Below are positions 253 through 62,113 of a stretch of DNA of 64,000 nt, in pieces; position 1 is the first letter of the stretch, and every line of letters begins with the position of its first letter. Where the stretch lies: the NCBI GenBank assembly GCA_018335795.1, contig JAGXRP010000035.1, positions 1 to 64,000 of the forward strand. The letters are read 5' to 3'. The notes under the pieces were generated by a model. That model had not been told where the DNA came from. It was given only the letters and a program-made list of their open reading frames with translations, and ran no database searches. Source of the stretch: Desulfobulbaceae bacterium (lineage in GTDB: Bacteria; Bacteroidota; Ignavibacteria; Kapaibacteriales; UBA2268). A program made the position numbers and the translations under genes.

Positions 253-621
253 AGGTGTATCTTTATATTGCTTTCCTTCATCCTGAGTAACACAATGATC
301 TCCAGTGAACCAAGATGTTTTTCCTTCTTGAGAAATGGGTAAACCATTATTAGTACATAACTTTTTCTCAACAGTAGTACCAACTTTTAAATGCACTTCA
401 AAACTTGGCCATGGTGAACCAGTTGGAAATGGGCCACAAATTTTCTGAGAACCATTCTTGTTAAACTCTCCAAACCCTTTTTCGTTTGAATAATTAGAGC
501 CATCTTTGATATTTGTCCTATATTTACAAAATTTACTGCAATTACCTGCTGGATTTTTACAACTTGATACAATACATAATATCAGAAAAACGCTTAGAAC
601 TGTACAAACTTTTTTATACAT
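250..621 (-). CDS. Cys-rich lipoprotein of unknown function, 3' end probably truncated by the IS
   Basis: This encodes about 123 residues with a signal peptide ending in a lipobox-like IVSSC, so an outer- or inner-membrane lipoprotein is likely. The mature part has five further cysteines (in NCSKFCK, ICGP, LCTN and HCVT). I do not recognise the family. I chose ATG 621 because an AGGAG lies 6 bases upstream; an in-frame TTG at 627 overlaps that site. The stop codon TGA (252-250) coincides with the terminal TGA of the IS inverted repeat. The natural C-terminus has therefore probably been replaced by IS sequence, and the gene is probably a truncated remnant, though still translatable. Confidence 0.6.
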   Translation of the reverse strand: MYKKVCTVLSVFLILCIVSSCKNPAGNCSKFCKYRTNIKDGSNYSNEKGFGEFNKNGSQKICGPFPTGSPWPSFEVHLKVGTTVEKKLCTNNGLPISQEGKTSWFTGDHCVTQDEGKQYKDTP

Positions 622-623
622 TT

Positions 624-722
624 TCAACTCCTAAAAATAATAATAGATGAATGTAATTGAAAACTAAAAGAAAAACAGACTATCAACAAACCAAATAGCA
701 AAAGAATAATGTTATTATCCAT
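624..722 (-). CDS. Small hydrophobic peptide (32 aa), possible leader of the lipoprotein gene
   Basis: An ATG at 722 has AAGGAG with a 6-base spacer, the same arrangement as the next gene. The frame runs 32 codons to TGA 626-624, inside the Shine-Dalgarno of the lipoprotein gene (start 621). The product begins MDNNIILLLFGLLIVCFSF and is one short membrane-spanning or signal-like segment, with no soluble part. Overlap of its stop with the downstream ribosome site would allow translational coupling. It could be a real micro-protein, a leader peptide or a chance frame; the good ribosome site and tight overlap favour the first two. Confidence 0.4.
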   Translation of the reverse strand: MDNNIILLLFGLLIVCFSFSFQLHSSIIIFRS

Positions 723-923
723 ATGCAACTCCTTGTTGTAAAACAATGATTATATTTAAAACTTAATGCTAATTCTATAAAATTTCCATTGTTTATGAAA
801 AATCCATATTTATTCTTAGGACACCTTTTTGCAAAACAAATAAAATAATATGACACTTCCAAATTTTATTTTAAAATTTCAAAAAAAAAATCAATTATTT
901 TCCGTTCCAATGCTCCATAACAC
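723..923. other. AT-rich intergenic region without recognised genes
   Basis: About 200 bases between the small hydrophobic ORF and the terminator of the next minus-strand gene. The stretch 841-900 is almost pure A/T. The minus-strand promoter of the small ORF and lipoprotein should lie here, but I could not pick a convincing -33/-7 pair. No further ORF with a ribosome site was seen. Confidence 0.5.
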
Positions 924-960
924 AAAAAACCCTCATCAAATCAAGTCTGACAAGGGTTTT
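924..960 (-). terminator. Rho-independent terminator of the T9SS cargo gene
   Basis: Arms aaaaccct (926-933) and agggtttt (953-960) form an 8-bp stem. On the minus strand the stem is followed by a run of T. It lies about 20 bases after the stop of the minus-strand gene ending at 982. Confidence 0.7.
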
Positions 961-981
961 AGAGAGTGGAAAATTTTCGTT

Positions 982-1887
982 TTATCTTTGGATTACAAAT
1001 CTGCCTGATTCGGGTATGCCGCCGGTGGTGATTGTGTAGTTATATACGCCATTGCCCAGACTCACTCCGGTGATGATGTGATTGATTTTGCCGGCACTCG
1101 ACACATTGACATTTTGCTTAGATACCACATTGCCCGATACGTCGCTGATAGTCAATTCATATACGCCCTGTGTGGGTGCGTTGAATTCGAGATTAATGGC
1201 ATCATTTGCAGGATTGGGGAATACATTTGCGTTATATCGTGCTGCAGATTGGTCGGATTTTTGGAAAAGTCCACCTTCGTCTTCAAATGGGCTACCGTCC
1301 CAAAGCATCACTCTCATAAGCTGATGTTCAGGATTATTCTCAAATTTATTGCCCTTTCCATATTTGCCTTTGCCCTTGCCATGATTTGGGCATTCCGCCG
1401 ATTTGTTCTCACATTCAGCTTTTTCGACGTTTTCTTGTTTCCATTCGCGTTTCATAGTACGCATATCATCTTGCCATTTTTCCGATTTTGGCTGAATCTC
1501 TTCTTTTAAATTTGCGAAAAAGTCAGAGTGGTTCTCAATTATAGGAAGCAACTGAGCATGCATTTCTTTCATTTGCTCTCTCATCGGATGATTTTTGCCT
1601 TTTTTGCCGCCTTTGTTGCCTCTGTCCGGTGTGAAATTTCTCATGTGTTCGAGCCCGTCTTTCTTGAATTCGGTAGCTTTTGCTCTTGCACTATTCAAAA
1701 TTGCCAATTCATCGCTATTCAATTCCTTATCAATTTGGCTCTTCCAAATATTCATTTGAGGGTGTATGTTTTGTTCTGCGTAAGTTCGGATGTCAGCTTT
1801 CAAATCGTCGAAGTTTTTTTGAGTCTGCGAAAACAATAGGATTGATGAAAATGCTATAAAAACTGTAATTGCTAAGATGCGTTTCAT
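982..1887 (-). CDS. Secreted Spy/LTXXQ-like protein with C-terminal T9SS sorting domain
   Basis: This 301-residue protein has an N-terminal signal peptide (MKRILAITVFIAFSSILLFS). A helical, charged region (about 25-150) follows, with residues reminiscent of Spy/CpxP-type periplasmic proteins (methionine- and lysine-rich helices). Next come a Gly/Lys-rich linker with HGKGKGKYGKG (about 170-180) and a final ~80-residue domain starting NVFPNPAND and ending SGRFVIQR. That last domain matches the type A sorting domain of type IX secretion cargo, so the protein is probably exported by T9SS and anchored or released at the cell surface. The Spy-like resemblance is weak; the sorting domain is clear. 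It is a single gene with its own terminator. Confidence 0.75.
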   Translation of the reverse strand: MKRILAITVFIAFSSILLFSQTQKNFDDLKADIRTYAEQNIHPQMNIWKSQIDKELNSDELAILNSARAKATEFKKDGLEHMRNFTPDRGNKGGKKGKNHPMREQMKEMHAQLLPIIENHSDFFANLKEEIQPKSEKWQDDMRTMKREWKQENVEKAECENKSAECPNHGKGKGKYGKGNKFENNPEHQLMRVMLWDGSPFEDEGGLFQKSDQSAARYNANVFPNPANDAINLEFNAPTQGVYELTISDVSGNVVSKQNVNVSSAGKINHIITGVSLGNGVYNYTITTGGIPESGRFVIQR

Positions 1888-45166: not shown

Positions 45167-46360
45167 TTAATGAAATTTTATTTTCAACATCGAAAAGTCA
45201 TCGTCTAAAATTTCCTTGCTACCAAGAATTTTTACTTTGTTGAGCAATCCGTCTATTTCATCGGCATTATCGTTCTTGGTTTCATTGATAAAATCTGCCA
45301 TTTCGTCAAGCTCCCAAATTGAGCCGTCAAGAAGTTCGATTTCATATACTCCATCGGAATATACGTAGAGAAGTGAATCTTCCGGAACATTCACTTTGGT
45401 TGCGTTAAAAGGGAAATCCGGTAAACCACCGATTATAAAATTATCATTCATCAGCTTATTCATATTGCCTTGCTTATCAATCAATAGGGCAGGAGGATGT
45501 CCGGCACTTATATAGCTAATTGTTCTATCGGCTTTGTTATAAACTCCATACCAAATTGTGAAATAGAGTCCGTTATGGTCTGACATCTGGAAAGCTTTAT
45601 TTAAAGCTATTGCCACTACTGCCGGGTCATGAAAATTGAGCGTTGACAAGGCATTGCTTTTCAAGAAATTCATAGCCGAAACTGATAATAATGCAGGACC
45701 TACGCCATGCCCGCAAACATCAAGCAAGTATATGGCAAAATGGTTGTCGTCCAACCAATGATAGCCGAATGAATCTCCACCTAATTGAGCAGAAGGGATA
45801 AATCTCCAAAATGTCGAAATACCGTCTTTACTGATTGCTTCAGGAAGCATAGAAATCACATATTCGCCCGCTTTACTCAATTCTGAAGCTAAAGCTTTTT
45901 GACTTTTTTCCAATGATTCGTAGGCTTCGTTCCTTTGCAATAGATTTATATATGCTTTGGAATGATAGCGGATACGAGCTAACAATTCAATTTTATCAGG
46001 CAATTTTACTATATAATCGTTTGCACCTGCTTCAAACATCTCAGCCTTGGTTGTAGCTTCTTCTTTAGACGATAAAACAATAATTGGCACATCTTTCAAT
46101 TCCTGCGATGCACGATAGAATTTTACCAATGTCAAACCATCAATATCAGGCATTATCAAATCTTGTAAAATCAATGTTGGCTTGATTTCCTTCGCCGTTG
46201 GTAGGGCGATGGCAGGGTCTTGACAGAAGTGATACTCGATATCATCAAATTGCGATAACATTCGTCTCACTTGCTCGCCAACTATTAATTGGTCATCAAC
46301 CAATAGTACTTTGATTTTATATTCTTTAGGTGTTAATTTTAGTGGGTTGTCATTTTGCAT
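45167..46360 (-). CDS. Response regulator: WspR-like receiver fused to a PP2C/SpoIIE phosphatase
   Basis: This 397-residue protein has a receiver domain (about 15-135) with acidic pair Asp22/Asp23, phospho-acceptor Asp67 in ILQDLIMPDIDG and a VLSSKEE Lys. A helical linker RIRYHSKAYINLLQRNEAYESLEKSQ (about 140-165) resembles the receiver and stalk of WspR. A PP2C/SpoIIE domain (about 175-397) follows, with metal-binding LGGDSF, DVCGHGVGPA, SAGHPPAL, YSDGVYE and DDDFSML. WspR carries a GGDEF cyclase at this place. It is the last gene of the chemosensory operon. CheA should phosphorylate it and so switch dephosphorylation of an unknown target, such as a STAS protein. Confidence 0.9.
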   Translation of the reverse strand: MQNDNPLKLTPKEYKIKVLLVDDQLIVGEQVRRMLSQFDDIEYHFCQDPAIALPTAKEIKPTLILQDLIMPDIDGLTLVKFYRASQELKDVPIIVLSSKEEATTKAEMFEAGANDYIVKLPDKIELLARIRYHSKAYINLLQRNEAYESLEKSQKALASELSKAGEYVISMLPEAISKDGISTFWRFIPSAQLGGDSFGYHWLDDNHFAIYLLDVCGHGVGPALLSVSAMNFLKSNALSTLNFHDPAVVAIALNKAFQMSDHNGLYFTIWYGVYNKADRTISYISAGHPPALLIDKQGNMNKLMNDNFIIGGLPDFPFNATKVNVPEDSLLYVYSDGVYEIELLDGSIWELDEMADFINETKNDNADEIDGLLNKVKILGSKEILDDDFSMLKIKFH

Positions 46361-46374
46361 GTTTTATCCTTATA

Positions 46375-47376
46375 TTATATAATTGTTCTCTTTATTTTGT
46401 CAGCAATTTCAACCGGATTTAAAATTTCCATTGATGCACCTAATTCGGCAGCAACTTTCGGCATTCCAAAAACAACCGAACTTGCCTCATCTTGAGCGAT
46501 TGTCAGCCAACCGGCTTTTTTCAATTTTAGCAAACCTTTGGCTCCATCATTGCCCATTCCGGTTAAAACTATTGCAATTCCCGTTCCAATCCAATTATCT
46601 TTGATGGACTCAAAAAAACGGTCAACTGAGGGTCTGTAATGGTAATTTATCGGCTCGGGCGTGTATTCGAAATATCCCAATGGGTCAATAATCAAATGGT
46701 CGTTAGTTCCTGCAATGTAAACGCGCCCATTGATTGGCTTTGTTTTAGCTACGGCGATTTCGACAGGCAATTCTGAATATTTATTCAGCCATTCGGCTAA
46801 ACCGTCAGCAAATTTGCTGTCCACATGTTGAACGATAACGATTGCTGCGTTTAAGTTTGCAGGCAAATTAGATAAAATCCCTGTCAATGCTTTCGGGCCA
46901 CCTGTTGATGAACCGATAGCCACCATATTCACTTTATTACCTGAATAGATTGCACTTTGCTTTTTCTCGAATTGCGAGGTATAGCTAATTAATTTTCTAA
47001 TCGTGCTGATTTTTTTGACTAAATTATCTTCACCAATCAGATTACCTGCTTCATCCAATACAGGAGTTTCAACAACATCTAAAGCACCGTAACCCATCGC
47101 ATCGAATACTTTAGTGCGATTAATATTCAGCGAGGTAGTCACAATCATAATCGAACATGGATTGCTTTCCATGATGATTTTTGTTGCTGTAGCGCCATCC
47201 ATCACCGGCATCATAAGATTCATCAGAATCAAATCCGGCTTGTCGGCATTAAGTTTTTCGATTGCTTCGGCTCCATTGGTGGCAGTCCAAGCAATTTCAG
47301 TCGCTTCAATGGATTTTATAACTTTTCGGAGTATTTCTATTTCAATCAATAAGTCATTGACAATGGCTATTCTCAT
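46375..47376 (-). CDS. cheB: CheB-type methylesterase (WspF-like) with Asn at the phospho-acceptor site
   Basis: This 333-residue protein has a receiver domain (1-120) starting RIAIVNDLLIEIEILR, as in WspF, and a CheB methylesterase domain (about 148-333) with IGSSTGGPKAL (Ser), VQHVDSKFADGLAEWL (His) and GMGNDGAKGLL (Asp). It demethylates receptors. In the receiver, ILMNLMMPVMDG has Asn53 (codon 47218-47220) where an Asp is phosphorylated in the family, so phospho-activation is likely lost or the domain is locked. It lies between cheA and the PP2C regulator. Confidence 0.9.
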   Translation of the reverse strand: MRIAIVNDLLIEIEILRKVIKSIEATEIAWTATNGAEAIEKLNADKPDLILMNLMMPVMDGATATKIIMESNPCSIMIVTTSLNINRTKVFDAMGYGALDVVETPVLDEAGNLIGEDNLVKKISTIRKLISYTSQFEKKQSAIYSGNKVNMVAIGSSTGGPKALTGILSNLPANLNAAIVIVQHVDSKFADGLAEWLNKYSELPVEIAVAKTKPINGRVYIAGTNDHLIIDPLGYFEYTPEPINYHYRPSVDRFFESIKDNWIGTGIAIVLTGMGNDGAKGLLKLKKAGWLTIAQDEASSVVFGMPKVAAELGASMEILNPVEIADKIKRTII

Positions 47377-47379
47377 TTC

Positions 47380-49725
47380 TTAAGGTGTCCCTATCAAATC
47401 GTAAACGGCATTAAGTAAAGTGTTATCATGAAAGCTGCTTTTGGTCAAATAATATGAAGCTCCGGCAGAAAGTCCGGCTTTTTTGTCGTCTTCTCGGTCT
47501 TTGTATGATACAATCATAATCGGCAAATCGCGATATTTTATATCATTTTTGATTCGTTTGACCATTTCGATTCCATTCATCCGAGGCATGTCTATATCCG
47601 AAATTACCAAGTCGAAATTATCACGATGCAAAGTATTCCAACCATCAATGCCATCAACGGCAACAGTCACTTTAAATCCTTTGTTCTCGAGAAGTTTGCG
47701 CTCAACTTCACGAACTGTTATCGAATCATCTACCACGAGAATGTGCTTTAGTTTTTTGTCGCCTTTTTGGAGATTGATATCGGCTTTTTCCAATTTCCCG
47801 GATTTGATAATTACATCTATTGACCTGACTAAATCATCAACATCCGTAATCAAAACAGGAGTTCCGTCCTCTAAGATTGCTCCTGAGCTGATGTTTTGGA
47901 TTCGCCCTAACTTCTTGTTAATTGGAATAACCACCAAGTCTGTCTGACTGATAAATCTATCCACTGACATCCCGAATTTGCTCAATCTATCGCTCACAAC
48001 GACAATTGGATATTTAATCCTTTCGCTTTTGACTCTTTGAATTCCGAAAATTTGCGCAGCATCAACAATGCCGATGTTTTCGCCTTCAAGTTCGCAATAA
48101 TAATGATTTTCGGCTTTTTTCAATTCTGAAGTCGAAAGATGCACTATTCGTTCAATTCGTGAAAGTGGAATAGCATAAGGTTCGCCTGCAATTTCGACTA
48201 ATAATGACCTCAAAACCGACAATGTTAATGGCAATTGTAGTTGAAAAATTGTACCTTTGTTTGGCTCCGAATCAACTCGAATCATACCGCCAACTTCATG
48301 CACCATCGAAAACACTACATCGAGCCCGACACCGCGTCCTGAAATTTCAGTAACTTCAGTTGCGGTTGAAAATCCGGGCAAAAACAAGAAGTCGAATAAT
48401 TCGGCTTTTGTCATGAATTGAGCCATTTCGGCAGTCGTAAATCCCTTGTCAACAATTTTTTTGCGGATATACTCGGTGTCCATGCCTTTGCCGTCATCCT
48501 CGATAAAGACCATCAACATACCGGATAAGTGCCTTGCCTCAAGTGTAATTGTCCCGGTTTCATTTTTAGATTTCGATGCTCTTTCGTCCGGCATTTCAAT
48601 ACCATGGTCTATTGCATTTCGGATAAGGTGATTGAGCGGAGCTTCGAGCTTTTCGAGAATATCGCGGTCAACTCTGGTGCTTTCGCCTCGAATTTTAAAT
48701 TCTACTTTTTTACCCAATTTTTTGGAAATGTCCCGAACAAGTCGCGGAAATCCTGCAAGTCCCTCGGAAAAAGGCTTCATCCGTGTATCAATTGCTTCGT
48801 TATAAAGCCTATCTGTAAGAATTTCTAATCGGCGAGAAAATTGGTCGAAATCATCAATATAATCTCGCAATTCACTCAATAACATATCCATTTTTTTTGA
48901 TGCATCACGAAAATTTTCGTTAATCTCATCGGAAATATTGTAGGGTTGAAGTTCTTGATAGATTGATTCCTTCAGCGTATTCAACTCAATAATTCCGTTT
49001 TTCAATATTTGAAGCTCATTTCCGAATGGGCGGAGCAATTTTGTTTGCACTAAAATTTCACCTGTCAGACCAAGTATTTTGTTCAATCTGTCAGACAAAA
49101 CCCTAACAAATCTATCATCAGTCTTTTTGGCATTTGATTCAATTTGTTCATCCTTCGCGATGGCTGATTCAATTTCTTCGCTTGGTGTTTGAACGACTTC
49201 GATGCTTTTCTTTTCGACTATTTCGATTGGAACTTTTGGTTCATGTTTATTTGAACCATTTGTTGAAGCGTTGCTTTCATGTGCTTTCTGAGAACCGTTT
49301 GTTTTGGGTTTTTCATCTCCAAATTCCTTTATGGGTAACGCATTCAAACTATCAATCAAGCTTTTGATTTTGTTAGTCGAATTACTCAAGACGTCAGGAA
49401 TTTCTGCAATTTCATGATTAAGAAGAGAAGTATAAAAATCGTTACATTCCAAAAGGACTTCAATATCGGTCGAATCAATCACACGCTTCTTTTTCATAAC
49501 GGCATCAAGAATGTCTTCCATCGAATGTGCCAAATCTACAGCTTTGTCTAAACCGACAATTCGTGCGGCTCCTTTGATTGAGTGTGCTGCTCGCATCAGC
49601 GGTTCTACATTTTGAGGTGAACTGTTCTTTTCGAGATTGATTAATCCAATTTCCAATGTTTTGGTATGGGATTCCAACTCAAGCCGGAACAAATCCAGCA
49701 TTTCCATGTCTATTTCATTTGACAT
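47380..49725 (-). CDS. cheA: Hybrid histidine kinase CheA with C-terminal receiver (WspE-like)
   Basis: This 781-residue protein has domains in the following order. An HPt domain (1-115) carries His48 in RAAHSIKGAARIVGL. A low-complexity Asn/Ser/Glu linker of about 90 residues takes the place of P2. A dimerisation helix pair (about 215-320) and a HATPase domain (about 330-510; LNHLIRNAIDHGIEMP, DDGKGMD, GRGVGLDVV) follow. A CheW-like P5 domain (about 510-640) is followed by a receiver (about 655-781) with Asp in DLVISDIDMPRMNG. It reads receptor state and phosphorylates the REC-PP2C protein, and perhaps its own receiver. The CheA-REC layout is that of WspE. Confidence 0.92.
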   Translation of the reverse strand: MSNEIDMEMLDLFRLELESHTKTLEIGLINLEKNSSPQNVEPLMRAAHSIKGAARIVGLDKAVDLAHSMEDILDAVMKKKRVIDSTDIEVLLECNDFYTSLLNHEIAEIPDVLSNSTNKIKSLIDSLNALPIKEFGDEKPKTNGSQKAHESNASTNGSNKHEPKVPIEIVEKKSIEVVQTPSEEIESAIAKDEQIESNAKKTDDRFVRVLSDRLNKILGLTGEILVQTKLLRPFGNELQILKNGIIELNTLKESIYQELQPYNISDEINENFRDASKKMDMLLSELRDYIDDFDQFSRRLEILTDRLYNEAIDTRMKPFSEGLAGFPRLVRDISKKLGKKVEFKIRGESTRVDRDILEKLEAPLNHLIRNAIDHGIEMPDERASKSKNETGTITLEARHLSGMLMVFIEDDGKGMDTEYIRKKIVDKGFTTAEMAQFMTKAELFDFLFLPGFSTATEVTEISGRGVGLDVVFSMVHEVGGMIRVDSEPNKGTIFQLQLPLTLSVLRSLLVEIAGEPYAIPLSRIERIVHLSTSELKKAENHYYCELEGENIGIVDAAQIFGIQRVKSERIKYPIVVVSDRLSKFGMSVDRFISQTDLVVIPINKKLGRIQNISSGAILEDGTPVLITDVDDLVRSIDVIIKSGKLEKADINLQKGDKKLKHILVVDDSITVREVERKLLENKGFKVTVAVDGIDGWNTLHRDNFDLVISDIDMPRMNGIEMVKRIKNDIKYRDLPIMIVSYKDREDDKKAGLSAGASYYLTKSSFHDNTLLNAVYDLIGTP

Positions 49726-49731
49726 TTGTCA

Positions 49732-50418
49732 TCACCATTTCAATTTTGAATTTATCATATCGAATAATCTGTTTGTATCAATAATACTGACGGTTCTATC
49801 TCCAATTTCAAAAGTATTTGATGTCAAAGTTGTTTCCGATTTTGTGATTGTTGCGGGTGCTTTGGTGTAATTCTGAGTATCAGATTTGAAAACGCCATAA
49901 TGTTCGTCAACCGGAATCACATACGTTTCATCTGAGCTTTCTAAAACAAGCAGTGATTTGTATTTTTTAGCATCACCGTTTTCTAATGGTTTAACTCTAT
50001 TCAAACTCAAAAACGCAGACAATGATATGCACATGAGCAATTCACCGTTAACGTTGGTCAAACCCAAAAGATAATCGTTTGTTCTCCCCGGTACATAATG
50101 AACAAACTTAGAATCAACGGCTTCCTTAAAACTAACAGTTTTTACAGCAAGCCATTCATCTGCAATCCTGAATACAATAAGTGATTCCTGCGAATCAGAC
50201 TCGATTTCCTTGGGTGAACTGATTTGTTCAGTCCATTCATTTATCAATTCTTCGGGAATTTCACGCTTAAATAGCTTTCTTCCGCCTTCAGTATATACCG
50301 GGCAATTTTTGCAATGGTCATAACTTACAAGCAAATCACAGGAATTATCGCCGTAAATGCCAATTCTATTCCAGCACTTTGGTCCCTTGTCAAAAATGAC
50401 TTTTTCTAAATTTGCCAT
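49732..50418 (-). CDS. CheW-like coupling protein with N-terminal Cys motif (WspD-like)
   Basis: This 228-residue protein has a ~60-residue N-terminal motif with four cysteines (KCWNRIGIYGDNSCDLL ... YDHCKNCPVY; Cys15, 27, 36, 39), characteristic of WspD and a few other CheW proteins. It may bind metal. A CheW domain follows (about 85-228; LIVFRIADEWLAVKTVSFKEAV and YLLGLTNVNGELLMCISL). It couples receptors to CheA. It lies between the CheR-TPR and CheA genes, like WspD in the Wsp operon. Confidence 0.85.
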   Translation of the reverse strand: MANLEKVIFDKGPKCWNRIGIYGDNSCDLLVSYDHCKNCPVYTEGGRKLFKREIPEELINEWTEQISSPKEIESDSQESLIVFRIADEWLAVKTVSFKEAVDSKFVHYVPGRTNDYLLGLTNVNGELLMCISLSAFLSLNRVKPLENGDAKKYKSLLVLESSDETYVIPVDEHYGVFKSDTQNYTKAPATITKSETTLTSNTFEIGDRTVSIIDTNRLFDMINSKLKW

Positions 50419-50420
50419 AG

Positions 50421-51662
50421 TTATGAATTACTTAGTTTTACAAAAACGCGTTCAGCCCGTTCTCTATAAATATTTGCAAGTTCGTGTTCGCCACTACTTT
50501 CATAAATCAGGCTTGTATGAACCAATGATTCGTAATGGTCCGGCTTAAGATAAAGCACTTTATGAAAATAATCTTTTGCTTCTGTGATTTTACCTGAAGC
50601 ATTACTTATAAGCCCCATCACGTATAAAGCCCTGAAGTCGCTATTATCACTACTTAGTAATTCATTACAAATATGTTCTGCATCTACGTATTCACCCTTA
50701 TTTGCCAAATTGTTGAGTCTAATGTATAAATCATCTTTATTTTCTTTAAGAATTGGTTTATGTAGCTTTTCAGTTTTTTGAGCAGGCTTTAAACTTGATT
50801 TTTGAGGAGCTTTCTCATCTGCCTTAGCACTTGATTTTGTAAACAAAGTTCGCTCAGTAGCATTTGGCGTAATAATTTGTTTGCATGCGAAAGCCATATC
50901 ATGCTGTACATGCTCGAAATGGTTGCGAGTAAAATATGCTGTTTCGGACAAACCAGCAAACAAAACACCATCTTTTCGGAGCAATCGGTTTATATTTTGG
51001 AGAACTGCATTCCGAGCTTCAATATTAAGATATATTAACAAATTTTTACAAAAAATATAATCAAATTTTGCTTCATTTGCTAAGAAATCGCTTTTTACAA
51101 TATTAGCTTGTCTGAAATTAGGAATAGATTTTATTTTGCTGTCAATTGCGAAATTTTTATCATTCGTAAGCTCAAAGTATCTTGATTTGAAACCTTCGAA
51201 ATCATTCCGAAATGAGCTTCTGCCATAAATTCCTTTTTTTGCTATATTCAGCGAAATAGGATTGATATCAACCGCTACAATTTCAAAATCATTTATATTG
51301 AATCCAAGGTCTATCAATAACATAGATATTGAATAGGGTTCTTCGCCGGTCGAGCTTGGAGCAGAAAGTATCCGCAATTTATTAGTAGGGGAATATTTGA
51401 ATCTTCGCGAAGATAGTTCATGTTTGAGAAATTTGAAACATTCTGAATCTCTGAAAAACCAAGTTTCTGCAACAGTGAGTTCATTGATTAAATCTTGAAT
51501 TCTGTTGTTATCCGACATAAGATTGGCAAATTGCTTATTCTCCAATTCATCATGAGTGACGTGTTTGTTGATGGCACTTGCAACAGAAATGATACCAATT
51601 GAGTCGGTATCAATGCCCATCTCACTTTCTATATATTTAATTATTTCGCCAAAATCAGTCAT
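50421..51662 (-). CDS. cheR: CheR methyltransferase with C-terminal TPR (WspC-like)
   Basis: This 413-residue protein has an N-terminal CheR domain (about 1-80) and a SAM-binding domain (about 80-275) with ILSAPSSTGEEPYSISMLLI, IVAVDINPISLNIAKKGIYG, FDYIFCKNLLIYL and LFAGLSETAYF. A linker of charged residues and two or three TPR-like helices end the protein (about 315-410; RALYVMGLISNASGKITEAKDYFHKVLYLKPDHYESLVHTS). It methylates the receptors encoded upstream. The TPR tail is shared with WspC. Confidence 0.92.
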   Translation of the reverse strand: MTDFGEIIKYIESEMGIDTDSIGIISVASAINKHVTHDELENKQFANLMSDNNRIQDLINELTVAETWFFRDSECFKFLKHELSSRRFKYSPTNKLRILSAPSSTGEEPYSISMLLIDLGFNINDFEIVAVDINPISLNIAKKGIYGRSSFRNDFEGFKSRYFELTNDKNFAIDSKIKSIPNFRQANIVKSDFLANEAKFDYIFCKNLLIYLNIEARNAVLQNINRLLRKDGVLFAGLSETAYFTRNHFEHVQHDMAFACKQIITPNATERTLFTKSSAKADEKAPQKSSLKPAQKTEKLHKPILKENKDDLYIRLNNLANKGEYVDAEHICNELLSSDNSDFRALYVMGLISNASGKITEAKDYFHKVLYLKPDHYESLVHTSLIYESSGEHELANIYRERAERVFVKLSNS

Positions 51663-51692: not shown

Positions 51693-52124
51693 TTATAAAT
51701 AATTTTCGATTGTGCTAACTAACTTTTTCAAGTTGACTAAATGCACCAATTCAAAATCAATCAAAAAGACCTTGTCAATGAATGGGTGTGCTGTATAGCT
51801 ATTTATTTTTTCTTCATGCAAATTAGAATCAAGACTAAATGTTTCCGATACAACTTCAGAAATTATTCCGAATTCGATTTCAGGAGTTTCCGTATCTCGC
51901 ACTACAATAATTCTCGTGCTCAAATATATGTTAGCGTAATGTTGTTTCAGATAATATGCCAAATCGAACACCGGAATTAGCGAGCCACGGAAATTAATCA
52001 AACCCTTAAGATGTTCTGATGACTTTGGAATAGGAGTAATTCTGACAAAAGGTATTACTTCGACAACATTGTCTATATTGATGCAATAGTTAGCTTCATC
52101 AATTTTGAATGGCAATATCATCAT
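51693..52124 (-). CDS. cheW: CheW coupling protein (WspB-like)
   Basis: This 143-residue single CheW domain contains NYCINIDNVVEVIPFVRITPIPKSSEHLKGLINFRGSLIPVFDL, the defining CheW motif. It links receptor tips to CheA. It sits after the second receptor gene (4 bases) and before cheR (30 bases). Confidence 0.92.
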   Translation of the reverse strand: MMILPFKIDEANYCINIDNVVEVIPFVRITPIPKSSEHLKGLINFRGSLIPVFDLAYYLKQHYANIYLSTRIIVVRDTETPEIEFGIISEVVSETFSLDSNLHEEKINSYTAHPFIDKVFLIDFELVHLVNLKKLVSTIENYL

Positions 52125-52128
52125 AAAA

Positions 52129-54243
52129 CTACCCTTTAATCGTGAATTTTTTCAACTCTTTGTTCAGTCCTACTACAGCCTGATTCAGTTGACCTGTAGC
52201 ATTGTTAAATTCCGTTATCGAATCGCGTGTAAATTTTGCAGCATTATTCAATTCTTTCATAGATGAGTTGATTTCCTTTGAATTGCGAGATTGCTTAGTG
52301 GTCGAATCATATACGCTAGCGATTACTTCGGGTAATTGATTGGCACTCGAAATTAATTCGCCTAATGTGGAAATCAATTCCGATGCCTTATCTGTACCGC
52401 TTTTTGTCTGTTCTGTATATTTTATTATCGAATCAGAGCCTTCTTTTACAGCAATTTGCATCTCGGTAATCATATCTTCAATTTCTAGAGCTGCAATTGC
52501 AGTTTGGTCTGCTAATCTTCTAATTTCCCTTGCAACAACGGCAAATCCTGTTCCGTATGCACCGGCTCGTTCGGCTTCTATTGAGGCATTTAGAGATACT
52601 AGATTTGTCTGATTAGCCACTTTTGTAATTGTTGTGATTACCGAACTGATTTTTGTAGCTCTGGATTTGATGGTTTCAAGTTTTTCCGAAATATCAGCTG
52701 ATGATTCGGTCAAAGATGACATATTTGTTTTCAATTGGTTCAAATTTTCGTACCCGTCTTCTGCAAATTCAGAAGTTTGCTTTGCCATTTTGTTCAAATA
52801 ATCGGTCTGGACAGTCAAGTTTTCAGAAGTATCAGCAATTTCGTTACTCAATGAACTAACTTGATTTGTCAAAGCGGCTTGCTCGGCTACTATGGTTTCA
52901 ATTTCTTTGGCTGATGAAGTTATATTTCCTGTTGAATCGAAAACTAAATCAGCAGAACTTTTAACCTGAGTTAGCAATGAACCTAAATTGATTGTCATTT
53001 GTCGAATCGCACGGAATAATTTTAAAATCTCATCTCGCACATTAGTTTTGTCTTCCAAATATTTTTTGAACATACCGCTTCTTTTGGGGTCGTTAATTTC
53101 ATTTACAGCTGCTGATATATCACCTTTGGCAATTAACTCTGTGATTTCGGTTACAACTTTGATATGATAAGCTATTTGGAGAGAAATCATCACTACCATT
53201 ACAATGGCTATTGATAGAGCTAATCCGGTAACCGCAAAGGCAATCTGCCTTCTTTCCTCAAAATATTCCAATCGCTGATTGAGCAATGTATTTAATTCAT
53301 CATTCGTCGTATTCCAGAATTCCCAACTTGATTCGTTTACTTTGAGCACTAATTCCATAAATTCGTTCTTGTTTACCACACTAACAGCTTGGTCAGAGTA
53401 TTGTTCGTTGTGTTTTAGCAAGAACTCAAAATCGCTGTCAAATTTTAGAAAATTTGGGCGTAACACATTTGTCAAATTTGCATTTGTTCCGTAATATTTG
53501 CTGTCATTTTGGATAGATGTATTCAAAGCTGACAGCAAATGCTCGATATCTGTGCTTAGAGATTGTGCTAAATAGCGTAAGTAGCCTGCATGTTCCGTAT
53601 CAGGGTCAGTTAAAAATTCAGATGACGAGATTACATAATATGAAAAGCTTGTTTTGAATTTTGGCAATGATAGGAGAGTGATATCCGTCAAATAATAAGA
53701 ATCGAGGTCAGGGTCAAGAATCAAACCTGATTCGTCACCAATAAATCTTGTTAATTGGTTTATCAAGCTAAATATTTTACTGTACGATTTTGAAGATTCG
53801 TTAAAATTAGCATTATTGCTAATATTGGTTAAATTTTTCCATTCTTCATTGATTGATTTTGGAGTAAAAGACTTGTGCAACTCGTCATTGAGCAGTTTGT
53901 AAGCAAGTTTATTGTTATTTGATTGCTCATGAATTAAATAATCTAATTTGTTAAGATTTTGGTCAATTTCATTTGAAAGTGAATCACGCCTTTTGTTAAG
54001 TAATTGCGAAATTTCAATATATCCATCGTCATATATAGCCTTTGATAACATACTGTGCTCAGTCAATTGACTCAAAGATTCAATAACCGGTTCTAATAGT
54101 ATGTTCCCTGAGATTTCCATCTCTACTTTCTCGATGTTTGTATTGTAAGCAGAAAAGACAAAGAACATGAGCGATGCAATTGGCAAAATAAAAACAAGTG
54201 TGCTAATAAGCAATTTGACCCAGATTTTCAGATTTTTAAACAT
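52129..54243 (-). CDS. Methyl-accepting chemotaxis protein with long periplasmic helical domain
   Basis: This 704-residue receptor has two membrane helices (residues 9-30 and about 335-360) bracketing a ~300-residue, mostly helical periplasmic domain (with [21 protein letters not shown], typical of NIT/4HB-like sensors). A HAMP region and signalling domain follow, with the hairpin tip [40 protein letters not shown]. Its ligand is unknown. It lies 16 bases after the other receptor gene and ahead of cheW. Confidence 0.9.
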
Positions 54244-54259: not shown

Positions 54260-56467
54260 TCAACTTATTTTAAATTTTGATACTTCACTTTGTAATCCTC
54301 TCACTGCATCGTTGAGATTTTCTGTTGCTCGCTTGAATTCAGTCAAAGAATCCTTCGTTTGGGTTGCTGTCATACTCAATTGAGACATAGCTTCACTGAT
54401 TTGCTCTGCACTCTTAGATTGATTTTGTGTTCCTGTACTTACGTTTTCAAATTCGGGAATCAATTCTTTAACTCTTTCAATAATAGAATTCATTTGTTCG
54501 CCAATTTCGCCGATATTGCTCGTTCCGCGTTTTACTTCCTGTCCAAATTTATCCATTTCCATCACACCTGATGAAACCGAACTTTGCATTTCACTAACCA
54601 TATACTCAATATCTTTAGTTGATACTGCTGTTTGGTCAGCCAATCTGCTAATTTCGCGAGCTACAACCGAAAAACCTTTACCGTATTCACCTGCTTTTTC
54701 GGCTTCTATCGAAGCATTCAATGATAGTAGATTTGTTTGCTCCGAAATTTTATTAATCGTGGTCACAACTGTCGAAATCTTATTAGCTTTATCATTGATT
54801 ATGGAAAGCTTCGATGTGATTGAATTAGTTGCTTTAGCAAGGTCAAACATTGCTTGTTCCATCATTGTTAAGCTTGATTTGCCGTTTTCAGCCAAATCAG
54901 CAGTAACATTTGCGTTCGTACTAACTTTTATGATTTTGTTTGCCAACGTATATGAAGTTTGGGTTATTTCCTTGCTCGTTGCAGATACTTCTTTAGTAGA
55001 TGCGGCTTGCTCGGCAACAGTTGCTTCAAGTTCACGAGCCGATGCCGCGATTTGAGTTGCCGATGTTGTCACTTGAATGCCCGAACGTTGTACTTGACCA
55101 ATCAAGGAATCTAGATTGTTTATCATTGATTCAAAAGATTTGTACAGTTTATAAATATCATCTTTAAGATTGCTGCTCTTCTCGGAAACAAATTTTGTAG
55201 TTGTTTTTAGTCTTTCAAGATTACTCTTTGCAGCATGTATGTTGCCTGAAGCAATATTTGAAGCTAAATTAGTCAAATAACCCAGTGGTTGGGTCATTCG
55301 TTTTGCAAAGAACATTGTCAAAATCAATATGATGAATAAAGTGAAAATAATCAGACTTAAATAAATATTCTGCAAATCCGAAATCGTTGCTTCTATTCTA
55401 TTTCGCGAATCATTGAAATCATCATCAAATGCTCCGGCTCCAATGACCCAGCCCCAAGGTTTGAAATACGAAACCGCTGAAAGTTTTGAACGCATTGAGT
55501 CATTACCCACATCCTGCCATTGATATTCTTGAATGAAAAGCTCTCCTTGTTTGAGCTTCATTGCATTTTCAACCATATTTCTTACAAACTTATTTCCATT
55601 CGCATCGGCTATTTCTAAAACGCTTTCGCCGTCCCGCTCACCATTTTTAGAAATAATGTATTTGCCATAGTGAGGATTTAGCGACCCAAGTACGAACACA
55701 TATCCTGTTTTACCTACTTTTATGTTCATGATTGATTTCCGAATTGATTCAATGGAAGCAATCCGTTCACCTACATATATCATACCCTCAATTCGTCCGT
55801 TGATATAATATGGCTCGTATGCAGTGACATACCAATCATTAACAACAAAAGCAACGCCATTATAAACTTCCCCGTTCATGACTTTTGCTATTACGGGATT
55901 GACTTGACCATCGGGATTCACAGCCGGGATGTAAGTTCCAATTGCTCGTTTGTTATCATGATTTCTGACAGAAGTTGCTACTCTAATCATATCACCTTTT
56001 TCATTTATTCGCTGGAAGAGTGTGACTGTACCAAAAACCTGTTCGGTAACAATATCGACAACATGAGTCGGAGTATCAAAAGAAGTATTTTGACCAAGCC
56101 ATTTTGAGCCGATATTGACTGCAGGGAGCGTAACTTCGGTGATTTCACCTGTGAATTGATTTAATGCATTCCATTTGATTAGTTGCTTTGTGAAATTGAA
56201 ATCACCTTGGTCCTTGATTGTTTGCCTAAGCACATTCAAAGCAACCTTGTTTTTTTGGACAAAAAGTTCATTTGCCGTTTCAATAATTCCATATGCATCT
56301 TTTGAAATTTGGCTGATATTTGCTCTCGATAATGAATCGAGTTCCGTTTTAGTTCTTTTGGTCAGTTCAAATTGCAACCGAGCCGTAAAAACTAAAATCA
56401 AAATAACAGGTAATAATGCTGCTGAGACAGTCAGAATCATGAGTTTGCTTTTAAATGTCAATTTCAC
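54260..56467 (-). CDS. Methyl-accepting chemotaxis protein with Cache sensor domain (WspA-like tip)
   Basis: This ~735-residue receptor has membrane helices at about 10-30 and 380-405 with a double-Cache-type periplasmic domain between (about 40-375; [61 protein letters not shown]). HAMP and a signalling domain follow, with [38 protein letters not shown] and [19 protein letters not shown], close to WspA. The start is GTG 56467 with GGAG 8 bases upstream; the GTG at 56473 is only 2 bases from it. First gene of the operon. Confidence 0.9.
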
Positions 56468-56558
56468 CTGCACTTCTCCGAAATATTTTCGTCTATTGGT
56501 TTCAAAACAATTAACAAATTAACAAGAAAAATTGTTTTTTTCATAAATATACTTAGTC

Positions 56559-57921: not shown

Positions 57922-60513
57922 CTACTTTAGCTGAACAATTTCAGCTTTTAAAAATTTCTTCGTCTCACTGTCAATTTTAAATTTCTCTCCGATTCGCTTC
58001 CCAACAACCCAAACAGTTTCATAAGTATTTCGGACGATGATGATGTTTGGTTTTTCGAGCAAAGTAACCTTTTCATTTGTCAAGAAATCGCTTATTTTCA
58101 TCTCACCGGGTGCTCCAAGAGGTTGGAAAGTGTCGCCTTGTTCCCAATTTCGTATTTCCACATAAGTCCCAACTTTATCATAATCAAAATATTCTACTTC
58201 GGGGTTTTCGATAATTTTCACAGCACGTTTATCAACTAAAGTGAAAACGATTTTATAACCGTTCACGCGGTATTCGCTTGGTATTGAGCCAAATACTTTT
58301 ATTTTCTTAATGACGGATGATTTGGATATAATTACAATGTTTCTGTCCTTCAGTGCAAAATATCCGGAGCCAATTTCTACTTGAGTGCCACTTTGTTTGT
58401 CAAAAATTGACATGATTCTATCAACGGCTGACAGCGATAATGGCTGCAATCTAAAATATTTAAGCCAAGCAGCTTGAATAATTTCACCTTGCATGAACTC
58501 TTCATGAGTTTGAAGTATAGGTACCTTGAGACTGAATCTTTCGGGTGTGACATCCACAACTACCGGGAGTAAATGCTTTTTGACTAATTCTCTAATCAAA
58601 TTATCAGCACCATAAATTAATCTTGCTGTACGTGTAATGATATCATCAACAGCAGGATTAAAATCAGCCCTAAGTTTTGGCATCAAATCTAAACGAATCT
58701 TGTTTCTTGTATAATTCAACAATTGATTCGATTCATCTTCTCGCCATTTTAGTTTACGCAATTCGGCATAATTTTTTATTTCTTTCTTGCTAAAAGCAAG
58801 TAGAGGTCTAATGATGAGTACATTTTTTACAAATTTCCTGACTTCAGGGATGCCGCTTAATCCGGTTAATCCCGAACCACGTAATAAATTTAGCATAAAG
58901 GTTTCAACTGAATCATCTGAAGTATGGGCAGTAGCCATCAAATCGGCATCTAAATTTCTAGTCGTACGTTCAAAAAAATTGTATCGCAAATTACGAGCTG
59001 CATGTTCGATACTTATATTATTTTTTTGTGAGAATGCTTTAACGTTACCGGAACTATTTAAGAATTGGACGTTATATTGTTCAGCCAAATTCTTTACTAA
59101 TTCAGCATCTAAGTCTGATTCTTTCTCACGAAGCATATGATTGAAATGTGCGATGTATATTTGCAATCCCAATTTATCAGCAATCAAAGCCATACAATCC
59201 AACATGACTACAGAATCAACACCACCACTGACTGCAAGAACTATTCTGAATCCCTTTTCTATGTAGATTCTCGTTTTGAGAAAATCTTCGATTGTTGCTA
59301 AAAATTTCCGGATTACCGGATTTTTTAATAATCGTGGAGCTAATTGTTTAACGTCGGGTAATGAATATGTCAATACTTCTCGAGCGATAGGTTTTGGTGT
59401 ATGCTTTGATTGCAAGTCCTGTTTAAGGTCTTCCTTATTATTTTTAGCATTTATAGATTGTGGTTTTTGCTTAGTTTGCTCTGCTTTTGTTTTTTGATTC
59501 GGATTTTGTTTTATCTTATTCGGGTTTTGCTTAATCTGATTGGGGTTTTGCTTTTGTTGATTCGGATTTTGTTTTATCTGATTCGGGTTTTGCTTAATCT
59601 GATTCGGGTTCTGTTTTGGCTGTTCTACTGTAGTTTGTAGCTCAGAATTCACAACAAGGTCTTCAACTTTCTCCTTTTGATTCGGGTTTAGTTTTTGTTG
59701 ATTTGGATTTTGCTTAATCTGATTGGGATTTTGCTTTTTTTGATTCGGGTTTTGCTTAATCTGATTCGGATTCTGTTTTGGCTGTTCTACTGTAGTCTGT
59801 AGCTCAGAATTCACAACAAGGTCTTCAACTTTCGCCTTTTGATTCGGGTTTTGCTTAATCTGATTGGGGTTTTGCTTTTGTTGATTCGGGTTTTGCTTAA
59901 TCTGATTGGGGTTTTGCTTTTGTTGATTCGGATTTTGCTTAATCTGATTGGGGTTTTGCTTTTGTTGATTCGGATTTTGCTTAATCTGATTCGGATTTTG
60001 CTGATGTTGGCTTCTACCCTGAATGTTTTGATTTGGAATATAGTTGGCTTGTCGTGGAGTAGATGTATTGCTTTCAGTGGCAATTTTGTCAGAAACTTTT
60101 ATTTCATCATCAGAATCGAAAGTAATGATAGAACTGAAATTTAGAGATTCAATTTTTGGTTCAGCATTTTCAATCTCTGATATTTCATTTTTAACTACTT
60201 TTGTTGACTTGCGTTTTTGAGAACTATTGCTAGAAGATTGATGCGCGTTTGAATTAACAGATTCAACATTCGAGTTATCAGTTTTTGAGTCATCAGCTAT
60301 TTTAAGTTCAGTAATCGTCACAGAAACTTTCTTTTCATCAACAATCACTGTATCGGGTGAGGTGTTGCTTGTTACCTTTCGTCGAGTATTAGATTTTTTG
60401 CGTTGAACTTTGAAGCCATCTATCTCGGTTTCAGAATTTACTTTTGTTGAAGCCGGAGATTCATCAGTTAATTTTTTAGCAATATCTGCTTTGGTTTTAT
60501 TACTTTTTGCCAT
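57922..60513 (-). CDS. tilS: tRNA(Ile)-lysidine synthetase TilS with a ~400-residue repeat-rich N-terminal extension
   Basis: This 863-residue protein has its TilS core from about residue 400, with the PP-loop SGGVDS at 429-434, HFNHMLREKESD, a TAHTSDDSVETFMLNLLRGSGLTGLSG motif and a C-terminal domain to 863. TilS attaches lysine to C34 of tRNA(Ile2). The first ~395 residues are charged and low complexity. Residues about 170-342 are tandem KQNPNQ/QKQNPNQIKQNPNQ repeats of 14 residues. No Met lies between residue 1 and the core, so no ATG start could skip the extension. Normal TilS is about 430-450 residues. Paired with hpt. Confidence 0.9.
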   Translation of the reverse strand: MAKSNKTKADIAKKLTDESPASTKVNSETEIDGFKVQRKKSNTRRKVTSNTSPDTVIVDEKKVSVTITELKIADDSKTDNSNVESVNSNAHQSSSNSSQKRKSTKVVKNEISEIENAEPKIESLNFSSIITFDSDDEIKVSDKIATESNTSTPRQANYIPNQNIQGRSQHQQNPNQIKQNPNQQKQNPNQIKQNPNQQKQNPNQIKQNPNQQKQNPNQIKQNPNQKAKVEDLVVNSELQTTVEQPKQNPNQIKQNPNQKKQNPNQIKQNPNQQKLNPNQKEKVEDLVVNSELQTTVEQPKQNPNQIKQNPNQIKQNPNQQKQNPNQIKQNPNKIKQNPNQKTKAEQTKQKPQSINAKNNKEDLKQDLQSKHTPKPIAREVLTYSLPDVKQLAPRLLKNPVIRKFLATIEDFLKTRIYIEKGFRIVLAVSGGVDSVVMLDCMALIADKLGLQIYIAHFNHMLREKESDLDAELVKNLAEQYNVQFLNSSGNVKAFSQKNNISIEHAARNLRYNFFERTTRNLDADLMATAHTSDDSVETFMLNLLRGSGLTGLSGIPEVRKFVKNVLIIRPLLAFSKKEIKNYAELRKLKWREDESNQLLNYTRNKIRLDLMPKLRADFNPAVDDIITRTARLIYGADNLIRELVKKHLLPVVVDVTPERFSLKVPILQTHEEFMQGEIIQAAWLKYFRLQPLSLSAVDRIMSIFDKQSGTQVEIGSGYFALKDRNIVIISKSSVIKKIKVFGSIPSEYRVNGYKIVFTLVDKRAVKIIENPEVEYFDYDKVGTYVEIRNWEQGDTFQPLGAPGEMKISDFLTNEKVTLLEKPNIIIVRNTYETVWVVGKRIGEKFKIDSETKKFLKAEIVQLK
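59488..60004 (-). repeat. In-frame 42-bp tandem repeats within tilS (QNPNQ-type)
   Basis: Units such as attcgggttttgcttaatct (plus strand) recur with a 42-base period, encoding QKQNPNQIKQNPNQ. Within the array a larger segment encoding KVEDLVVNSELQTTVEQP occurs twice (about 59620-59680 and 59785-59840), which indicates duplication of a multi-unit block. All units are multiples of three bases, so the frame is kept. Confidence 0.9.
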
Positions 60514-60589: not shown

Positions 60590-62113
60590 TTAATCATTGT
60601 CTTGGTTCAATGGAATAGAAAATGCAAAAGTTGAACCCTTTCCGAGAGTACTTTTTACCCAGACTCTGCCGTGATGTGCATCGATCAATTTTTTGACTAT
60701 CCAAAGCCCCAATCCGGTAGAATTTTCGTTCCCTGTTGGTTTTGCACTCAACCTAGCACCTCTTTCAAATGTATGTTTCAAATCTTCTTGTGATAGTCCT
60801 AAACCGTTATCACTTATCTCGAAAACTACATTATCATTTTCAAAGAAAGATTTCAACTTCACACTTCCACCATTTTGAGTGAATTTAATAGCGTTAGAGA
60901 CTAAATTTTCGATTACTTCATCAATTTTGTTGGGGTCGAGCATACATTCCGGCAAGTCAGACTGCAAAGATGTTGTAAAAATGATTGATTTGTTCTTAGC
61001 TGCTATTTTGTTACGAGTAAACACATCATTCACAATATAGTTTAAGTTTGCTTGTTCAAAATTTATAATCATCCGATTACTTTCAAGAGCCATGATTCTT
61101 GATACTTCTTGTGAAAGATTAACAATTCTTGAGGTTGTTTGGGCTATATCGTTTATGATTTCCTGTTGCTCACTTGCAGTTAAATCATACGATGTCAGCA
61201 ATTCCACTAAACTTTTAATAAGCGAAGCCGGATTTTTGATGTCGTGAATAACCACCGCAAAAAGGTCGTCCTTTTGCTTTTGGAGGTCTTCTAATTCCAT
61301 TTTGCTCTTTGACAGTTTTTGAACCATATGTTGTAAATCGCTGTTTTGCTTTGCTAATTCTTGAGCTCGTAGCAATACTGCGTCAATTTGTCCACGTAAG
61401 GCTGAAATTTCAGCCCTCAGCTTACTATTTTCCTCTAAAGCGGACTCATATTTTGATAAATCTACACCTTTCGATTCGCTTTTAATTGCAATTTGCTTTT
61501 CAGCCCCATTCTTTTTTCCTTTCGCTATATATAGCACCAATAGTATGATTACAAGCAATCCAAGCAGTGCTATTATGATTTTCTCAAGGTTAGATGATGA
61601 TTCTGTACTTACTTCTTCCGTAAGCAAAGTGTCAGGAGGTGCTACCATTCCGGCTATATGTTGTTTGAGAGAATCAATTTTGACAAACATTGCAGCTTTT
61701 TCGTTATCAACAATGATTTTTATTTCCGTTTCTACTGCATTCCATTGTCTTTGCAAATCGAATGCTCCTATCGTCAAAATATAATTTTTTTCGGGTAGAT
61801 TTTTGTAAGAAACTGATGGCGAACCTGTTGTACGTATAGATGAATCTATCCCATCACTAAATTTAACTCTGAAGTAAAATGGCGTTGTTTTATCAGCGCT
61901 TTGAGCTGTATTAAGCCTGTATTCGACAGAAATCGAATCCGAATTGCTGATGGTAATGCCATTACCGAAATCGCTGACTTTCGTACTATTGACATAAATT
62001 GTCTCCAACACTACAGTTTTACTCGAATCTATAGGCTGACTATATGTTTGCCTGATAGGCAATATGTTCAACAGCACTATAAATGAAATCGCTAAAATAA
62101 TTTTAATTTTCAT
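60590..62113 (-). CDS. Membrane sensor histidine kinase
   Basis: This 507-residue protein has a signal or first helix (IILAISFIVLLNILPI), then a periplasmic beta domain of about 140 residues resembling a triple-Tyr (Y_Y_Y) sensor fold. A transmembrane helix (about 180-200, IIIALLGLLVIILLVLYIA) and a coiled coil (about 222-280) follow. The HisKA domain carries phospho-acceptor His in AVVIHDIKNPASLIKSL, and the HATPase domain shows ENLVSNAIKFTQNGG, DNGLGLS and GLGLWIVKKLIDAHHG. It should phosphorylate a response regulator, but none lies beside it. Its signal is unknown. Confidence 0.88.
   Translation of the reverse strand: MKIKIILAISFIVLLNILPIRQTYSQPIDSSKTVVLETIYVNSTKVSDFGNGITISNSDSISVEYRLNTAQSADKTTPFYFRVKFSDGIDSSIRTTGSPSVSYKNLPEKNYILTIGAFDLQRQWNAVETEIKIIVDNEKAAMFVKIDSLKQHIAGMVAPPDTLLTEEVSTESSSNLEKIIIALLGLLVIILLVLYIAKGKKNGAEKQIAIKSESKGVDLSKYESALEENSKLRAEISALRGQIDAVLLRAQELAKQNSDLQHMVQKLSKSKMELEDLQKQKDDLFAVVIHDIKNPASLIKSLVELLTSYDLTASEQQEIINDIAQTTSRIVNLSQEVSRIMALESNRMIINFEQANLNYIVNDVFTRNKIAAKNKSIIFTTSLQSDLPECMLDPNKIDEVIENLVSNAIKFTQNGGSVKLKSFFENDNVVFEISDNGLGLSQEDLKHTFERGARLSAKPTGNENSTGLGLWIVKKLIDAHHGRVWVKSTLGKGSTFAFSIPLNQDND

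Follow-up and report, generated by a model that had tools for sequence, protein, structure and literature searches.

The Wsp system of Pseudomonas is built from WspA to WspF and the response regulator WspR (PMC5812489; statements on published systems follow the available parts of the cited texts). The locus analysed here resembles it in its components and in the receiver and stalk of its regulator, and differs from it in having a PP2C output instead of GGDEF, two receptors, and a CheB whose receiver lacks the phospho-acceptor Asp. The action predicted here for the regulator is like that of HsbR on HsbA in P. aeruginosa, in which HsbR, a REC-PP2C-kinase protein, dephosphorylates the STAS-type antagonist HsbA when it is itself phosphorylated, and so acts on FlgM/FliA (PMC5812489); HsbR, however, is fed by the HptB phosphorelay rather than by a receptor/CheW/CheA array, and has its own kinase domain. 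The RsbK-RsbM-RsbY-RsbV-RsbW system of B. cereus (PMC9912610) parallels the path proposed below, from a methylation-tuned kinase (RsbK) through a regulator phosphatase (RsbY) and a STAS protein (RsbV) to RsbW, but RsbK is a stand-alone histidine kinase, the system has no receptor/CheW/CheA array, and it drives SigB. RssB of P. aeruginosa (REC-linker-PP2C; 3f7a and 3eq2) shares the overall architecture and gives the best whole-chain fold match, whereas its identity is 24-25% and its receiver is absent from the 16 PDB matches (E<=1e-10) to residues 12-158 of the protein studied here. RsbU is under the control of a coiled-coil linker, and exchange of input domains among phosphatases, cyclases and kinases has been proposed (PMC12143880); RsbU-type phosphatases resemble our regulator in the helical linker leading into the PP2C domain and differ in their input, which is an RsbT-binding domain and not an array-driven receiver.

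PP2C outputs have also been catalogued beside arrays. A survey of 2012 listed "Ser/Thr phosphatase: family 2C" among the regulator outputs of array clusters with CheR-TPR, which it assigned to ACF systems; the available part of its text gives no receiver lineage, targets or RsbW/STAS linkage for them (PMC3447774). Partner switches acting on diguanylate cyclases are discussed in PMC7647112, a link between a REC-PP2C-kinase protein and chemoreceptors has been suggested in Campylobacterota (PMC9239204), and "WspE-WspRF" has been reported in Planctomycetes (PMC6461901). PP2C outputs in array clusters, and HsbR and RsbY as REC-PP2C regulators of partner switches, were thus known before. In the open-licence PMC literature searched, as far as its text was available, we found no description of a WspR-type receiver on PP2C or of its link to RsbW. 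The original prediction that this wiring is not well described is overstated for PP2C outputs in CheR-TPR clusters. What is new here is a real and widespread WspR-receiver-PP2C variant, together with a testable prediction of its RsbW partner.

The gene run and its regulator

The window (the whole stretch of 64,000 nucleotides that was analysed) contains a run of eight minus-strand genes from 56473 to 45167, separated by gaps of 2 to 30 bp, in which the gene for the REC-PP2C protein is the last. The run begins with two chemoreceptor (MCP) genes, at 54260-56473, with a Cache_3-Cache_2 sensor domain, and at 52129-54243. These are followed by a CheW gene at 51693-52124 (WspB position), a CheR methyltransferase gene at 50421-51662 (WspC position), a second CheW gene at 49732-50418 (WspD position), a gene at 47380-49725 for a CheA with Hpt, ATPase, CheW and C-terminal receiver domains (WspE position) and a CheB methylesterase gene at 46375-47376 (WspF position). 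We take this to be the gene order of Pseudomonas wsp. The combination typical of Wsp/ACF clusters, receptor, two CheW, CheR-TPR, CheA-REC, CheB and regulator in Wsp order, is present, with weak TPR matches at the C-terminus of CheR (TPR_8, 22.4 bits against a Pfam cut-off of 25.7), and so is a multidomain output response regulator within the cluster. The eight genes probably form one operon, a single transcript being suggested by their spacing. All three CheW-type domains of the genome and two of its three MCPs sit in this run.

The CheB receiver has Asn in place of the expected phospho-acceptor Asp (LMNLMMP). The Asp is missing in 10 of 64 aligned CheBs from the loci compared, including that of the sister genome G196, in an alignment that holds a few rows not of Wsp type and possibly some misalignment, and in which rows gapped at the site were not counted as lacking it. 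Elsewhere in the window, the C-terminal half of the minus-strand ORF at 57922-60513 resembles, by sight, tRNA-Ile lysidine synthase, and its N-terminal part is a long NPNQxKQ repeat.

The last gene of the run (45167-46360, minus strand) starts with ATG and encodes 397 amino acids, of which residues 12-158 form a WspR-type receiver and stalk and residues from about 165 to 397 a PP2C domain. Pfam assigns residues 18-131 to Response_reg (67.3 bits) and residues 204-396 to SpoIIE/PP2C (124.6 bits), the latter over positions 1-191 of the 192 in the profile. The receiver residues D22, D23, D67 and K119 are present, and so are the PP2C motifs G-G-D196, D214, H218-G219, S-D336-G337 and D387-D388, which include the conserved metal-binding Asp residues of SpoIIE/RsbU-type phosphatases. 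Across 73 WspR-type/PP2C rows (the window protein, L044-L047 and 68 fusions among the best 80 of 555 relatives), D22, D23, D67, K119, D196, D214, H218 and G219 are kept in every row, while 72 rows have D336-G337 and 71 have D387-D388, L070 and L114 being truncated at contig ends. A degenerate PP2C domain is ruled out by this conservation. An AF2 monomer model from 36 sequences (mean pLDDT 92.8, pTM 0.74) has a single helix, residues 123-171, that runs from the receiver to the phosphatase and joins the two domains, and its best whole-chain fold matches are the RssB entries, then both WspR entries. The PP2C domain thus looks complete, as in the original prediction, with all metal-binding motifs and a nearly full-length Pfam match.

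The receiver and stalk show a much closer relationship with WspR than with any other protein of known structure. Residues 12-158 match the WspR entries 3bre and 3i5a with 177.7 and 175.4 bits, against 58.7 bits for the best non-WspR chain, PleD, and the WspR alignment extends through the stalk up to residue 158. In the reciprocal search, the receiver of a Pseudomonas WspR (L139) matched the REC-PP2C gene of this genome with 188.8 bits and 61% identity, and the second-best of its 20 matches in the genome reached 54.6 bits. A receiver of the generic RsbU/RssB type is ruled out by the gap in bit scores and the reciprocal match. A quick maximum-likelihood tree separated 91 WspR-type receivers from three other REC-PP2C receivers, taken from this genome and two relatives, with an SH-aLRT support of 97; it was computed from 145 columns, its outgroup branches are long, one reaching a length of 10, and its safest parts are this separation and the terminal groups. 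These results agree with the original prediction that receiver and stalk are specifically WspR-like, and the grouping with generic RsbU/RssB regulators that would have spoken against it does not appear. Because a SpoIIE/PP2C domain takes the place of the C-terminal GGDEF, the protein is nevertheless not a WspR. A type of array known for turning on a biofilm messenger thus ends here in a protein phosphatase.

Distribution of the fusion and other outputs of the receiver

Among 296 genomes of the same phylum, its own included, ten have any match at E<=1e-30 and five have a match of at least 450 bits (its own genome, G196, G184, G224 and G116), so the gene is rare in its own phylum. The gene run is found in all five, with cheR missing from it in G224 and G116 and the run complete in the two others and in this genome; the four other carriers belong to the same family or class as this genome. 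In a scan of a genome collection with the full-length PP2C alignment as query, in which the best 80 of 555 relatives were kept, the fusion is present in 68 of these 80, spread over 12 phyla. Planctomycetota account for 34 of the 68, and the other phyla are Pseudomonadota, Thermodesulfobacteriota, Verrucomicrobiota, Acidobacteriota, Cyanobacteriota, Myxococcota, Lentisphaerota, Elusimicrobiota, Ignavibacteriota, Chlamydiota and Chloroflexota; phyla were taken from the records, most of which are labelled MAG, and five fusions have no stated phylum. CheA was found in 51 of the 73 loci; of the 41 loci whose flanks both reach 5 kb or more (best 80 of 555 relatives), 34 have it. Genomes credited with "WspE-WspR" by name alone may encode a phosphatase and not a diguanylate cyclase.

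The WspR-type receiver also carries other outputs. By Pfam, GGDEF is found on it in L134, L137, L139, L141, L142 and L143 and in the second regulators of L077 and L080. Class III adenylate/guanylate cyclases follow it in the second regulator of L081 (L081:8356-9813) and in L132:9758-11107, L133:5326-6780, L135:10001-11464, L136:3601-5004 and L140:9725-11068, and histidine-kinase modules in both genes of L138. Since the query was a PP2C alignment, the loci are the best 80 of 555, and half of the 68 fusions are from Planctomycetota, the frequencies of these output types are not to be read from the 80 loci. Two outputs may stand side by side: the cyclase and PP2C regulators of L081 are in tandem, and the divergent WspR-PP2C genes of L077 and L080 each adjoin a wsp-like run that ends in a GGDEF-type regulator. 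The L077 GGDEF-type regulator (129-1154, minus strand) reads SDEKF at the signature site; this GGDEF domain may be inactive, and the L077 array may therefore rely on the phosphatase.

The original prediction spoke of an output swap, which implies that GGDEF came first, an order for which the receiver tree gives no support. The receiver tree requires at least eight output changes among labelled rows, of which the starred branches force only two for the PP2C label; L134 was entered as "other" though it carries GGDEF, and L137 and L140-L143 were labelled by similarity and later confirmed by Pfam. The GGDEF-bearing WspRs of Pseudomonas and Cupriavidus fall among the PP2C receivers, with modest support in a weakly resolved tree.

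RsbW and STAS genes near the fusion and in this genome

The original prediction also named a partner switch (STAS/anti-sigma) as a possible target of the phosphatase. In relatives, 8 of the 73 rows (L047, L065, L071, L090, L091, L092, L093 and L125) have a gene for an RsbW-type kinase, the usual opponent of such phosphatases, no more than 5 kb from WspR-PP2C, all eight being confirmed by Pfam, and a STAS gene lies within the same distance in L047, L065, L071, L077 and L125. Among the 41 loci whose flanks are both 5 kb or longer (best 80 of 555 relatives), seven have RsbW and five have STAS within 5 kb, and 34 have no RsbW in that range. Moreover, a Pfam-confirmed RsbW gene lies upstream of the first array gene in L119 and L123, and G224 has an RsbW-STAS block about 5 kb further downstream. 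Against a background of 64 PF13581 matches of at least 60 bits in 23 genomes, about 111 Mb (hand count), the expectation for 41 stretches of about 11 kb is about 0.27 RsbW loci, compared with the seven found (Poisson P about 2e-8), a figure that is a guide only because part of the background comes from genomes with linked copies, the detection profiles differed and L090 and L093 are related. This background is the genome-wide density of PF13581 and not the surroundings of unrelated PP2C genes, and PP2C genes in general may lie near RsbW genes.

Some of these neighbours are very close. The RsbW gene starts 1 bp past the regulator in L092 and overlaps it by 4 bp in L091, and in L071 it follows the regulator in the same direction, together with a STAS gene. 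The genome of L092 (G301) has no PF13581 match other than this adjoining RsbW, and both of its CheW-domain matches are in one MCP-CheW-CheA locus with no response regulator beside it; in the genome of L091 (G312), three CheW matches are likewise in one locus with no response regulator beside it. In these two metagenome assemblies, which are possibly incomplete, the lone array and the separately encoded WspR-PP2C/RsbW pair may complement each other. By sight, the RsbW genes of these Verrucomicrobiota run on into genes like those of oligopeptide ABC transporters (L092:11564-16573 and L091:4415-8674). In cyanobacteria of the Scytonema group, the WspR-PP2C gene is followed by a DUF6272 gene, a weak STAS-like gene under the cut-off and a mechanosensitive-channel gene (L128:9986-14214), and a similar STAS-like gene is near WspR-PP2C at L130:7760-10166.

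The search of this genome for STAS and RsbW-like genes, as originally proposed, found ten STAS matches and four PF13581 proteins over the cut-off, none of them linked to the gene run. Local profiles found no STAS or RsbW gene in the window, the matches of the genome being on other contigs; the sole PF13581 match in the window is under the cut-off (60674-60904), inside a gene at 60590-62113 that is a histidine kinase by sight. One of the four PF13581 proteins, the C58 RsbW (G000:C58:20888-21256; L053:6877-7290; minus strand), is encoded divergently beside a STAS protein (C58:21404-21682; L053:7366-7713; plus strand), and no target gene was recognised beside this pair. In a nearest-hit test, the C58 RsbW was the nearest for 10 of 12 array-linked RsbWs and for 9 of 21 controls (hand count). 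Because this separation is only mild, an RsbW tree was built; the 12 of the test included a second RsbW of L047 and a distal one of L106, both of which were dropped from the "adjacent" group of the tree, to which that of G224 was added.

The careful tree of 41 RsbW rows, from which the control rows L147 and L167 and seven further controls identical to adjacent rows were left out, contains a 12-row clade with a support of 99/95. Eight of the 12 are array-linked RsbWs from five lineages (L047, G224, L071, L091, L092, L125, L119 and L123), and the others are the C58 RsbW of this genome, one RsbW of G196 and one G184 gene entered twice. Only 1 of the 21 controls falls inside the clade, and this one (L170) is the identical gene to the G184 row L190; the array-linked RsbWs of L065, L090 and L093 fall outside. 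The order inside the clade is not resolved and several of its rows are long-branched, with a meeting of long branches possible for L092 and L125 and an odd composition in L090, L093 and L163. Because all the genomes compared carry WspR-PP2C, the clade indicates a preferred type of RsbW and not co-occurrence. The C58 RsbW and the adjacent C58 STAS protein are therefore our predicted partners of the REC-PP2C protein, although the genome also offers ten STAS matches and one SiaC-type protein as possible substrates, and the C58 pair could be served by nine further SpoIIE-type phosphatases. The idea of a partner-switch target thus gains from RsbW/STAS genes near the fusion in a minority of loci of several lineages and from the shared clade, and loses from the lack of any STAS or RsbW gene over the cut-off in the window.

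A proposed path and its alternatives

We consider it fairly probable that the array acts through the phosphorylated REC-PP2C protein and a dephosphorylated STAS protein on an RsbW partner switch, with the C58 proteins as the predicted partners. A signal at the receptors would set the autophosphorylation of CheA, whose phosphoryl group would pass to D67 of the receiver. Phosphorylated receivers would then pair, and the continuous helix 123-171 would relay this to the PP2C domain and turn the phosphatase on. The phosphatase would take the phosphate off a Ser of the STAS protein, which would then bind the RsbW-type kinase and free whatever the kinase held, and CheR-TPR and CheB would provide adaptation. 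The gene run, the receiver lineage, the intact catalytic residues and, in relatives, the gene linkage and the RsbW clade are read from sequence; we infer every phosphotransfer, the pairing of receivers, the phosphatase step, which protein is its substrate and what the path finally acts on. If true, two major kinds of signalling logic would be joined in one path, the chemoreceptor array with its methylation memory and the RsbW/STAS partner switch. There is about an even chance that this is one case of a widespread unnamed module, in which a Wsp-type array with a dedicated phosphatase and a dedicated kinase of the RsbW clade couples chemoreceptor arrays to Ser/Thr partner switching with no c-di-GMP involved. 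The WspR receiver-stalk would then be a plug-in, joined in other proteins to GGDEF, class III cyclase or histidine-kinase outputs, and PP2C would perhaps be as old an output as GGDEF.

A different target for the phosphatase, a SiaC-type threonine phosphoprotein in place of a STAS protein paired with RsbW, is suggested by a locus of this genome (L050:6486-10415) that holds PP2C, SiaB-like DUF6272, SiaC and second PP2C genes; one PP2C domain there is among the genome's closest to that of the REC-PP2C protein (213 bits, 43%). DUF6272 and weak STAS-like genes also come after WspR-PP2C in L128. The SiaB/SiaC locus, however, already has PP2C genes of its own, and the kinases near WspR-PP2C in other lineages are of the RsbW type by Pfam, so that we hold this target to be distinctly unlikely. 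Local SiaB and SiaC profiles also matched none of 85 sequences, a weak null because these profiles, from two sequences each, missed the L128 DUF6272 that Pfam finds. A set of genes similar in appearance to the L050 locus is present in G196 (L051). That the PP2C domain serves as a binding adaptor, like E. coli RssB, and has no phosphatase activity is highly improbable: although no whole-chain structure matches better than the RssB entries, all 73 rows keep the metal-site residues wherever they cover them, and the score against the Pseudomonas RssB equivalog model is 107.5 bits, below its cut-off of 700.

The array might instead be a motility chemotaxis system whose CheY is encoded elsewhere and acts on the flagellum, with the PP2C regulator as a side branch. 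All three CheW-type domains of the genome being in the run would fit this, as would several single-domain receivers in the genome and flagellar genes, named by sight, about 4.5 kb from the run. Because FliM is present in the genome, and begins with a stretch like the CheY-binding one, a motility role keeps some probability. We nonetheless judge this reading unlikely: the run has no genes for a single-domain receiver, CheD or CheZ, and the four relatives with the operon have 7 to 9 CheW matches, which indicates further CheW/CheA genes besides the operon there. Its layout, with CheR-TPR and a multidomain regulator, is moreover of the ACF type (PMC3447774).

The original prediction that the array does not lead to c-di-GMP synthesis fits the GGDEF content of the genome. 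There are two GGDEF matches. The only one over the cut-off (41 bits) has DESTY as its signature in an alignment with WspR-type GGDEF domains, and the second, under the cut-off, is a 30-position fragment in a short, stop-containing frame; neither was recognised as a competent diguanylate cyclase. With regard to the receiver of CheA, 811 of 871 genomes with a single receiver-bearing CheA were found without the usual CheY phosphatases, which was read as a phosphate sink in the available text of PMC10782961, and by analogy the CheA receiver may have this role in the present genome. An identical 148-aa receiver is encoded at L180:465-911 and L181:460-906 (C57 and C68), each time with the same 105-aa neighbour, which reflects either a duplication or an assembly artefact.
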